Below, one piece after another: positions 8,451 through 32,536 of a stretch of DNA of 34,251 nt. Both the position numbers and the translations under genes were made by a program. The stretch comes from a virus, in IMG/VR virus record IMGVR_UViG_3300042453_000219, positions 1 through 34,251 of that record, one strand, 5' to 3'. The notes beneath the pieces were generated by a model. That model was not told where the DNA came from. It saw only the letters and a program-made list of their open reading frames with translations, and did no database searches. Every line of letters begins with the position of its first letter. The stretch's first letter is position 1.

Positions 8451-8727
8451 TTGATTTTCCTTTCGTTTAGGCATAGCTTCCCCAAGGGTGGATAGCTCCC
8501 ACCTGATCCCAAGCCTTTCTTTTCTATACAGACTCATTTACTTAAGACTCTAGATACCCCATAAGGCAGCGATTCATTCATACAAGGCTTTGTCTCCACC
8601 GCTAGTGCCTTGTACTACCTGAGTCCCTCGCTGACAGGCTCAGACCTAAACGGGGGTGTAACCGCTAGGTGTCTTTATTGCGATTCAGCCGATGCAGGCC
8701 ACCAACTAACGTGTCGCGGACGGTTGG
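8451..8727. other. Non-coding structured stretch upstream of the replication gene
   Basis: I see no convincing gene here. It contains three inverted repeats: ACCAAC (8701-8706) with GTTGGT (8723-8728), TACAAGGC (8581-8588) with GCCTTGTA (8607-8614), and CTGAG (8619-8623) with CTCAG (8639-8643). ACCGCTAG occurs at 8598-8605 and 8661-8668. The same octamer also occurs inside the replication gene at 8172-8179, but it turns up elsewhere by codon use too. The stretch could be a leader RNA or an origin region. Neither is shown. Confidence 0.45.
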
Positions 8728-8949
8728 TTATGACTCTGGCTTAACTTCAACCAGATTCACCTTCTCGCCTTCTGTCTCTGCTCGAATGATAGTCATAAGG
8801 ATGGTCGCAGGCTTATCAAACTTCTTAGATAAACGAGCCGCTTCCTCTATCGCTTCAGTAAGGGTGCGATGCTTAACGCGTGGTGGCCAGGCCCCATCGG
8901 AGAGATGGACCATATAAAAATGGTTTGGTACTGGCCTACGTTTAGACAT
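8728..8949 (-). CDS. Small conserved phage protein behind the attenuator
   Basis: The 73-residue basic protein begins MSKRRPVPNHFYMVHL and has a predicted beta-alpha-beta core with a helix at TEAIEEAARLSKKF, then an ILMTIIRAETEGE strand. Similar short proteins with an F-Y-x-VH opening occur in many phages without known function. Its ATG comes directly after seven U residues of a terminator-like stem. Its only ribosome site (AAAGGG on the minus strand, plus positions 8957-8962) lies inside that stem, so expression should depend on how the leader folds. It is the first gene behind the leader and is followed by the non-coding stretch and the replication gene. Confidence 0.65.
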   Translation of the reverse strand: MSKRRPVPNHFYMVHLSDGAWPPRVKHRTLTEAIEEAARLSKKFDKPATILMTIIRAETEGEKVNLVEVKPES

Positions 8950-9057
8950 AAAAAAACCCTTTATCAGAGACTTGGGCTTGACAGGCCAGCACCTGACTAG
9001 GTGAAGGTGCGTACAAGCCCCTGATAAAGGGTTCTTACCTACCTAGTCAAATGCTGG
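8950..9057 (-). promoter_or_regulatory. Candidate transcription attenuator / structured leader
   Basis: On the minus strand two helices compete. The terminator helix pairs 9021-9033 with 8955-8967 (13 bp, perfect) and 9014-9020 with 8974-8980 (7 bp), and is followed by U7 (8956-8950). The alternative helix pairs 9041-9057 with 8986-9002 over 17 consecutive positions, two of them G-U. Its 3' half is in the terminator loop and its 5' half is upstream, so both cannot form fully. The ribosome site of the next gene is in the terminator 3' arm. This is the layout of an attenuator or riboswitch expression platform. The signal it would sense is unknown. Confidence 0.6.
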
Positions 9058-9078
9058 AGCGTCACTTCCAACACTACA

Positions 9079-9108
9079 AGTATACAGTAGATCAAGATCA
9101 GAACTCAA
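9079..9108 (-). promoter_or_regulatory. Candidate sigma-70 promoter for the leader
   Basis: On the minus strand a -35 box TTGAGT (9103-9108) is 18 bases from a -10 box TATACT (9079-9084). Transcription would begin near 9072-9075 and run into the structured leader. It overlaps the last codons of the gene ending at 9098. The match is decent but not ideal, and no experiment supports it. Confidence 0.45.
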
Positions 9109-9409
9109 ATATTTTCACTTCCCACCGTCCCGCCTTGTTCTTAGCCCAGCCGTGGACCTCCATCTTCCACCCTGCCCGCAAGACCGCAGGCCAGTTCTCA
9201 TGCTCGCTGATCTTGGCGATCCTAGCCGCCATATTTGACCGGCTTGTCGTCTGGACCCCAAGAGTTAGGGATTCCCCTATTGCCAATATGTCTACGAACC
9301 CGAAAAGATCGTTTCGCACCCTGGCAAAAGGGTTCCAATGCTCCACGATGGCGGCGGTAAGCCCTCGCTCCCGCACTAGAGCCAAAGATCTTTGGGTCGG
9401 TGAACTCAT
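9098..9409 (-). CDS. PD-(D/E)XK-like protein, possibly inactive
   Basis: From ATG 9409 (AAAAGG upstream) the protein has 103 residues. It carries ARVRNDLFGFVDILAI (D40) and, on the next strand, VQTTSRSN (Q53). This D...QxT arrangement recurs in small phage relatives of the restriction-endonuclease fold, where Q replaces the usual acidic residue. A GW-MEVHGW strand follows. It may be a small nuclease, a Holliday-junction-resolvase relative or a DNA-binding remnant. It is the first gene of the leftward arm, directly beside the divergent control region, which suits an early function. The start at 9457 would add 16 residues without a good ribosome site. Confidence 0.6.
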   Translation of the reverse strand: MSSPTQRSLALVRERGLTAAIVEHWNPFARVRNDLFGFVDILAIGESLTLGVQTTSRSNMAARIAKISEHENWPAVLRAGWKMEVHGWAKNKAGRWEVKIFEF

Positions 9410-30474: not shown

Positions 30475-30809
30475 GTTACCCAAGCCTGCCAGATTTCAAA
30501 CGGGGTGATACCTTTGCCCTGACTTGCACCTATAAGACAGATGGAGTCCCGACCTCTATAACGGGCTATACCATCCGTTCCCAGATTCGGCAGACCAATA
30601 AGACATTGGTGGCCACGCTGACCGCAACACCCGCAAACCAATCTACAGACCCAGGCGTTTTTACTCTTGCTCCCGATACCAGCACAGAAGACTGGCCAGT
30701 AGAGACTCTTGTTTGTGACATAGAAATAACCCAAGGCGGGTTTGTTCGCAGCACGAATACCTTTGCGGTTCCGATTGTCAGAGACATTACCTTGCCAGCG
30801 GGGTCGTGA
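30471..30809 (+). CDS. Fibre-associated beta protein (BppU-N-like)
   Basis: The 112-residue protein begins [20 protein letters not shown], followed by [22 protein letters not shown] and [13 protein letters not shown], then [26 protein letters not shown]. This is an immunoglobulin-like beta sandwich similar in pattern to the N-terminal baseplate-attachment domain of BppU-type fibre proteins. It is just upstream of the collagen-like fibre gene and may be the adaptor linking this fibre to the tail tip. ATGA and TGATG overlaps tie it to both neighbours. Confidence 0.6.
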
Positions 30810-32536
30810 TGAATACCATAGAGATACAACAACAGAACACCGAGCTAACGGTAGAGCTAGGATTAAATGGCGCACCAGGACCCACCGGACCAACAGGGAA
30901 TATCGGACCCACAGGGCCTACGGGACCTCAAGGACCAACCGGACCCACGGGAGCCGCGTCTACTGTTCCAGGTCCTACAGGGCCACAAGGCGTTACAGGG
31001 CCACAGGGTCCGACAGGAATACAAGGCCCAACAGGAATCCAAGGACCGACAGGACCGCAAGGCGCAACTGGAGTACAAGGCTTAACAGGACCTACTGGAC
31101 CTACTGGACCGCAGGGGGTTATCGGACCTACAGGAAGCCAAGGACTAACTGGCCCAACAGGGCCTACAGGCCCGCAGGGAGTTATTGGACCTACTGGCAC
31201 GCAAGGTGTAACGGGTCCGACAGGGCCGCAGGGGATAGTCGGTCCTACTGGTCCTACCCCTTGGACTTTGCCTGCTACAGTATATGACAATGGTGCATCT
31301 TATAATCTTGGTGCAGCAGTTATCTATGCAGGAGGCTACTACTATAGAACAGGTAACGCATTAAATCCTGGGTATCCTCCGACCCCAGGCTCTATTAACG
31401 CATCATGGACTCCTGTAGCCGACGGTGGCGCTACTGGACCTACAGGAAACATTGGACCCACAGGACCAACTGGATCAATAGGATTAACCGGCCCCACAGG
31501 CCCTACAGGCCCAACGGGACCGGCTTCTACAGTTCCAGGACCTACGGGGCCAGCCGGAGCTACGGGGCCGACAGGACCGGCAGGACCAACGGGTGCAGCA
31601 TCTACCGTACCAGGCCCAACGGGTCCGTCTGGTAGCACAGGCCCGACTGGACCTACAGGATTACAAGGAAATGCTGGCCCGACTGGACCGGCGGGTGCAA
31701 CCGGAGCGCAAGGACCGACAGGGCCGGCTGGAGCAACAGGCGCGGCAGGACCTACTGGACCCGCAGGACCAACAGGGTTACAGGGTCCGACAGGGTTACA
31801 AGGTCCCACAGGTGTAGCAGGGCCTACCGGCGCAACCGGACCCACAGGACCAGCAGGGCCAGGCTTGCCTACTGGCGGCTTGCCTGGTGAGTATCTCGTA
31901 AAGAATACAAGTACCAACTATGACTTGGTCTGGACTGATCGCGCTCACGCAAGCATATTAAAAGGCTATTGCAAGAACGTCTCTGGTGGAACCTTGCAAA
32001 AGGGTACGCCGGTTTATCAGGTAGGCATTTCTGGCTCTGGCTTCACAATAGAAGTAGACGTTGCAGACGCTTCTAATCCTGCCAAGATGCCTGCCATCGG
32101 AATATTAGGCGAGACGCTTGCCGACGATGCAGAAGGCGAGCTGATTCTGCTAGGAGAGATCCAAGGCGTAGCAACAACTGGATTTACTGCTGGCGACGAT
32201 ATTTACGTTGCCTCTGGTGGCGGCTATACCAATGTCATGCCGACGGCTACGGGTATCGAGGTTCAGTACCTTGGAATTATTACCAAGGTTTCGTCTACAA
32301 ATGGCGGCGGCTATGTCTTAGGTACTGGTCAGAACGAGACCTTCCGCTACAACTCTGGAACAAGTAGCTTCCAGGGCTGGAATGGCACAGCGTGGACTGC
32401 GATTGCTGCGGCTGGAGCTGCTACAAAGCTCTTGGTAACAAATCGATCTGGTTCTATTATTGAGGTTCCGCTAACCAACGGATTCTTGGCTATCACGAAT
32501 CGTAGCGGTGGCATAGTAAACGTGCCGGTTTCTTAA
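30809..32536 (+). CDS. Collagen-like tail fibre with embedded carbohydrate-binding module
   Basis: From ATG 30809 (GTG 30806 also possible) the protein has 575 residues. A short N-terminal beta part leads to Gly-X-Y repeats, mainly [10 protein letters not shown], at about 20-149. Residues 150-205 are a CBM5/12-like module with [20 protein letters not shown] and its aromatic residues. A second collagen block covers 207-354 and a C-terminal globular region ([19 protein letters not shown] onward) ends the protein. Collagen triple helices form stiff rods, so this is probably a trimeric side fibre. The module may bind polysaccharide. Repeats are coded with many synonymous variants. Confidence 0.85.

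Follow-up and report, generated by a model that had tools for sequence, protein, structure and literature searches.

Two long RNA helices, A and B, can be drawn on the minus strand at 9072-8950 of a viral DNA of 34,251 nucleotides (IMG/VR virus record IMGVR_UViG_3300042453_000219; hereafter the window). The question is what these helices serve. A first-pass annotation had proposed that they exclude each other and form the attenuator of the small gene that follows. Judged from sequence comparison, the element makes up the 5' domain of a structured phage RNA that extends beyond it; this RNA was previously undescribed and is present in many uncultured phages.

Two long helices behind a promoter

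Both helices were found as the first-pass annotation had described them. Helix A pairs 9033-9014 (AACCCTTTATCAG followed by GGGCTTG) with 8980-8955 (CAAGCCC, then CTGATAAAGGGTT), giving 13 + 7 bp with a six-base bulge on the 3' side. Seven Ts (8956-8950) adjoin the stem, the first two of which double as stem-closing bases, and a U-run is present in all members of the family described below. The window has here the features of a terminator, a G+C-containing stem with a U-run directly behind it; a simple scan for short-loop terminators did not flag helix A, because its loop is long. Helix B pairs 9057-9041 with 9002-8986 through 17 gapless pairs, two of which are G-U. The RNA 9072-8948 has a minimum free energy of -51.1 kcal/mol (z = -4.0). 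In 1000 shuffles that preserved the dinucleotides, one stem of at least 13 pairs arose in 22 and two such stems in none. The observation of helix A together with helix B is therefore not due to chance.

The relatives divide helix B into three parts, namely helix E, a middle part and the B core (Table 1). The 3' strand of the middle part can alternatively make the local hairpin C. The UGAC in the loop of the hairpin P1 is complementary to a GUCA, also invariant, just before the 3' arm of A, and this pairing lengthens the combined helix E+B in the predicted 95-nt fold. Where cousins have another 5' domain, the UGAC/GUCA pair can be read by eye as UGGU/ACCA (L179) or as UGGC/GCCA (L260, L212 and L250).

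The promoter boxes proposed earlier are present, and their position is conserved. In 36 non-redundant relatives, a TATNNT box usually occupies -12 to -7 relative to the base with which P1 begins, and a TTGAAC-like box lies near -35. This conserved placement of the -10 box suggests that the RNA starts at about 9072 from its own promoter (9108-9079). The first-pass annotation had also put forward, as a weak candidate, a leader peptide of 11 codons. Since the predicted start falls inside the GTG codon of this peptide (9074-9072), the peptide was dropped.

Table 1. Features of the element and of the RNA that it heads, with positions in the window.
Feature	Positions	Strand	Remark
P1, 5'-terminal hairpin	GUUGG 9072-9068 / CCAGC 9057-9053	-	invariant UGAC in loop
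B core	UGACUAGG 9049-9042 with CCUAGUCA 9001-8994	-	partner-swap and length-class covariation tests
E	CCAGC 9057-9053 with GCUGG 8990-8986	-	competes with P1 and C
C, hairpin	GCACC 9010-9006 / GGUGC 8993-8989	-	loop contains 3' strand of B core
A, terminator-like stem	outer 9033-9021 with 8967-8955 (13 bp); inner 9020-9014 with 8980-8974 (7 bp)	-
U-run after A	8950-8956	-	at least 4 Us in 77/77 distinct members
D, closing helix	GUUGG 9072-9068 with CCAAC 8727-8723	-	spans 73-aa ORF
Type-1 3' domain	8470-8732	-	pseudoknot CAGCGA 8633-8628 / UCGCUG 8572-8567
Promoter (predicted)	TTGAGT 9108-9103, 18 nt, TATACT 9084-9079	-	boxes also kept among relatives
73-aa ORF	8728-8949	-	inserted between U-run and helix D; SD-like GGG in 3' arm of A

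Covariation in the relatives

A search with the upstream nuclease-like protein gave the first relatives, of which L003 carries the element and L002 does not. L003 has the layout of the window with different letters in both helices. An 18-base word common to the two, TGGCCTGTCAAGCCCAAG, matched 95 stretches in IMG/VR viral contigs, and a looser pattern matched 116 in the same contigs. After duplicates and chance matches were taken out, 77 distinct sequences were left. The sole candidate discarded for missing the U-run (L296) is by context a chance match. In the family, the first loop keeps UGAC and the foot of A keeps AGAACC, and GGCUUG, GGCCUGUCAAGCC and the U-run are conserved as well; the window carries all of them, together with A, C, P1 and the B core. 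The sequences that describe the family also served to build the models R1 and R2. When the RNA was compared by BLAST with 50,697 phage records, the window's 5' domain found no convincing match, and the exact 18-mer matched bacterial genomes twice, both times by chance as judged from context. The RNA family is apparently common among uncultured phages, where it lies behind promoters in several gene neighbourhoods.

Helices A, C and E were first considered jointly in 54 aligned sequences. Their pairing was 96.5%, with 163 double-change cells against 51 in the shuffled alignment, and dropped to 30-52% when the strands were slid. In helix A, which was paired to 94.9%, changes on both sides were found in 7 of the 13 outer pairs. 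Hairpin C had such changes in 3 of its 5 pairs and formed 4.9 bp, compared with 3.6 bp when permuted (0/20000). Helix E was 100% paired with few changes, and the run of pairs extending inward from E was 8.8 against 7.9 in permutations (0/20000). Because the length of the B core varies so much, the core was tested in two ways. Sequences combined with their own partners gave 8.3 bp and those with swapped partners 3.9 bp (0/10000 permutations); within one length class of 28 sequences, 97.4% of the cells were paired against 79.5% after shuffling, and 52 double-change cells were counted against 14. Sliding of the B core reduced its pairing to 22-45%. For P1, 99.3% of the cells were paired in the 54 sequences, with 7 both-side-change cells as compared with 1.3 in shuffles.

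For helix D, 67 relatives gave a value of 5.73 with their own partners, against a permuted mean of 5.29 and a permuted maximum of 5.66, in a test that is weak because the sequences are conserved. The matched pairs in D are GUCGG/CCGAC, GUUGG/CCAAC (L133 and the window), ACUGG/CCAGU (L147 and L160) and AUCGG/CCGAU (L003). Matched triples were also found: GUCGG with CCGGC and CCGAC, and GUUGG with CCAGC and CCAAC. P1, E, C and D draw on common strands, so that not all four can be present in one molecule, yet each of them is kept. The UGAC/GUCA extension is nearly invariant within the window's class and therefore has no covariation there.

It should be noted that the permutation tests ignore phylogeny, so that shared ancestry is still contained in these figures. 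Ancestry alone is unlikely to account for them, because the types of pairs are broad, as in the AU, GC, CG and UA found at one pair of B. Since bases on both sides have changed without loss of pairing in A, in the B core and in C, we conclude from the comparison that the element is a selected RNA structure. The selection on RNA suspected in the first-pass annotation is thereby borne out in both of its helices, in A by 7 of 13 outer pairs and in the B core by two tests.

These results bear also on a simpler reading, in which the upstream nuclease-like gene (9457-9098) has in A its ordinary terminator, and the other pairings arose by chance. Its attraction is that A and the U-run lie 65-150 nt past the stop codon of this gene. 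The conserved promoter, however, separates the gene from the element, and B, C, P1 and the 3' domain covary; we regard this reading as scarcely credible.

The 3' domains and the surrounding genes

Behind the U-run, at least seven kinds of 3' domain occur among the relatives. When the 77 members were sorted by motif and by eye, the domain known in Rfam as Betaproteobacteria-1 was found in 25, type 2 in 17, type 1 in 16 plus four variants, and type 5 in 5 plus L103, with at least three rarer kinds; the 25 Betaproteobacteria-1 domains were assigned by pattern, three of them being confirmed by covariance model. The domain at 8732-8470 of the window matches the type-1 model R2 with 200.8 bits, the window itself being among the sequences of the model. 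An RNAalifold analysis of 52 type-1 relatives gave 32 pairs, 24 of which have double changes. The type-1 pseudoknot (YAGCGA/UCGCUR) is paired in 52 of 52, with 16 double-change cells against 3.1.

Type 1 stands also behind quite different 5' domains: its pattern, CTGTYAGCGAGGGAC, was found in at least 119 viral stretches, a few of them by chance. A U-run stood at the expected place in 63 of 88 type-1 RNAs whose 5' domain is of another kind. In 47 non-redundant sister type-1 RNAs there is again a terminator-like stem with a U-run, and the loop of the stem pairs with an upstream segment as a clamp (7.6 bp with own partners against 5.4 bp with swapped ones, 0/20000). The upstream partner of the A loop is often the loop of a P1-like hairpin. 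Since unrelated sister RNAs keep a clamp on a terminator-like stem, the plan is kept, and not the sequence alone. In the 50,697 phage records, BLAST gave a partial match of the type-1 domain to MW202484.1 and a match of the Betaproteobacteria-1 domain in Acidovorax phage AP1. The former record is a podovirus from Manatee Spring, in which the type-1 RNA (L311, 2495-2758; 95 bits) lies under the annotated hypothetical protein UOF77725.1.

According to the first-pass annotation, the element would control the 73-aa gene as a classical attenuator, by termination and by hiding of the ribosome site. The ORF indeed begins right behind the U-run, with the SD-like GGG placed in the 3' arm of A, and L101 and L175 have a homologous ORF at the same place. 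Together with the window, however, these are only 3 of the 77 distinct relatives. In most of the others the ORF is absent and the element leads straight into the second conserved structured domain; moreover, helix D can join across the ORF. Because the ORF is rare at this site, the element is not readable as the leader of the 73-aa gene, and control of this gene as its purpose appears very improbable. As a query, the 73-aa protein found no relatives in viral contigs and only weak matches in phage records.

Small ORFs are inserted at two different places of the RNA, at 8949-8728 in the window and correspondingly in L101 and L175, and further along the RNA in L084 and L094, where the ORF is another one. 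Helix D is still possible across the insert. The RNA of the window lies between complete ORFs, with the nuclease-like gene upstream and a replication-initiation-like gene downstream. In L181, the type-1 RNA is found between scaffold-like and capsid-like genes, named by eye, and in other contigs the RNA stands beside ParB-like or PAPS-reductase-like genes, named from their sequence only. An intron was considered and rejected, as the RNA has its own promoter, the flanking ORFs look complete, no split gene was seen and no Rfam family matches. A nucleotide-sugar epimerase-like protein of 309 aa, recognized by eye, is encoded near the RNA at 7741-6812, and a putative tail protein with long collagen-like Gly-X-Y repeats at 30806-32536. 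No tRNA or tmRNA genes were found in the window.

A proposed co-transcriptional switch and its relation to known RNAs

When growing transcripts of the window were folded with RNAfold, P1 appeared first, the long helix E+B before the 3' arm of A, and A at the U-run. In 70 of 74 members, E+B was the minimum-energy fold before the 3' arm of A, better by 7.3 kcal/mol on average than the fold in which P1 was forced, and with the transcript extended to the U-run, A was predicted in 63 of 74. The early fold of E+B and the covariation of E and C support a co-transcriptional switch in which read-through would be favoured early. The order given by the first-pass annotation, with B formed before A, the 5' arm of A trapped and read-through as the default, agrees with these predictions.

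We propose that the 5' domain acts in a long phage RNA as an attenuator during transcription, and assign to this reading a probability of about 0.55. The long RNA, about 600 nt in the window, of which 222 nt are the inserted ORF, would be transcribed from its own promoter, and P1 would form first on the emerging RNA. The strand of E+B, with the UGAC/GUCA extension, would then zip into one long helix and trap the 5' arm of A, so that read-through is favoured. After read-through into the 3' domain, the freed 5' end would close helix D. Alternatively, P1 and C would persist, A would form beside the U-run, and transcription would stop at about 8950 to leave a short RNA. In the window, the read-through RNA would carry the small ORF, the ribosome site of which, lying inside A, would become accessible in the read-through state alone; this would be a local addition. 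Helix D gives a reason to think that the read-through product is functional and, together with the covarying 3' domain, indicates that the read-through RNA is a selected product.

There is another possible interpretation of the conserved pairings, namely a single fold without a switch. A, C, the B core and P1 would form a compact pseudoknot that heads the RNA, and the U-run would be a linker or a weak terminator. C and the B core both covary and are arranged as an H-type pseudoknot. B tends to be longer where the linkers are longer (rho 0.38 for L2 and 0.36 for L1), which fits B, C and A standing together as a pseudoknot and not their exclusion. The 5' region is clamped to the A stem also in the 47 sister RNAs with other 5' domains, and since this clamp pairs the A loop with the upstream region, A need not open. 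On the exclusion of the helices proposed in the first-pass annotation, the evidence is divided: A and B at full length look sterically incompatible, whereas the B core, mostly of 7-10 bp, could coexist with A as a pseudoknot. A single fold does not, however, agree well with the conservation of E, P1 and D, which compete for the same strands, with the U-run in every member, though a linker need not be U, or with the full-length E+B predicted early in nearly all members. We consider a single fold possible, with distinctly less than an even chance.

The attenuator reading may be extended to the sister RNAs. We tentatively suggest, at odds somewhat short of even, that these RNAs belong to a modular superfamily of noncoding RNAs from phages. 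Two exclusive co-transcriptional states of the 5' domain would there gate interchangeable large 3' domains, and different 5' domains would share the plan of a clamp on a terminator-like stem.

In attenuators and the expression platforms of riboswitches, a terminator-like stem with a U-run is set against an antiterminator-like helix that forms earlier. The competition of A and its U-run with the earlier-forming E+B is alike. In the window RNA, in contrast, neither a ligand to be sensed nor a leader peptide or a regulated gene is apparent, and what would be gated is the rest of a noncoding RNA. Against all 4227 families of Rfam release 15 at the gathering score, the whole window gave no match, in agreement with the earlier remark that no named riboswitch is known to have this layout. 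Neither the 5' domain nor the type-1 domain was matched, and permissive scans gave chance-level results only, with three eukaryotic small-RNA matches of this kind in 8520-9160 at E up to 10. In the open-access literature, no description of this RNA was found.

In position, the nearest known element is putRNA of phage HK022, a cis-acting RNA element of an early transcript that by itself affects transcription (PMC9378689). A processive antiterminator of this sort, acting on RNA polymerase from the nascent transcript of an early operon, would fit a structured RNA with which a replication-side transcript begins and which has a terminator-like stem. The location pattern is different, since the RNA is found also outside early operons, as between the scaffold-like and capsid-like genes of L181, and in the window RNA the element itself includes the terminator-like stem. 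A put-like function is in our view most improbable.

Nearest in kind are GOLLD and ROOL, which are large, elaborately folded noncoding RNAs carried by phages, with a function that is unexplained (PMC12286853). One half of GOLLD is conserved and the other less so (PMC12286853), as in the window RNA. The latter differs in that a terminator-like stem forms the end of its 5' domain, behind which several kinds of 3' domain are found, and the Rfam models of GOLLD and ROOL gave no match to it. It is another family besides GOLLD and ROOL, with one fragment in Rfam and the remainder absent from it. The modular parts of this RNA show enough covariation for a testable secondary structure to be defined, and its 5' head holds paired alternatives that resemble a termination switch inside a noncoding gene.

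The fragment is Betaproteobacteria-1 (RF02932), an orphan Rfam family that is now joined to a larger RNA. It was found directly behind the same 5' domain in L092, L105 and L128 (E 4e-13 to 9e-17) and also in other phage contigs. The Rfam model covers 120 nt of the 3' domain and starts after the U-run (L105), so that the 5' domain and type 1 lie outside it; the covariance model gave no match in the window. Hosts are suggested only by the name of this family and by those of a few relatives found through proteins or domains. In L321, L324, L359 and L383, Betaproteobacteria-1 lies directly behind a primase-like gene without the 5' terminator-like domain, and the record numbers of the first three suggest isolates. 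The contig L321 has in addition a match to C4 antisense RNA (RF01695, 60 bits) at 1656-1745.

The 3' ends of the Betaproteobacteria-1 type (L105, L099, L124, L092, L321, L333 and others) contain a word of 6-9 bases in two copies. One follows GGCUCC.. and probably lies in a hairpin loop, and the other follows CACCA.., at the 3' end. The word varies by phage (AGUGCAG, GGCGAA, GGGCAA, GGACAG, ACGGGAAG). Since the two copies match although the word varies among phages, their identity seems to be under selection. Another type of 3' domain, in L131 and L292, ends in a direct repeat, with ..AUCGGAUAG present twice.
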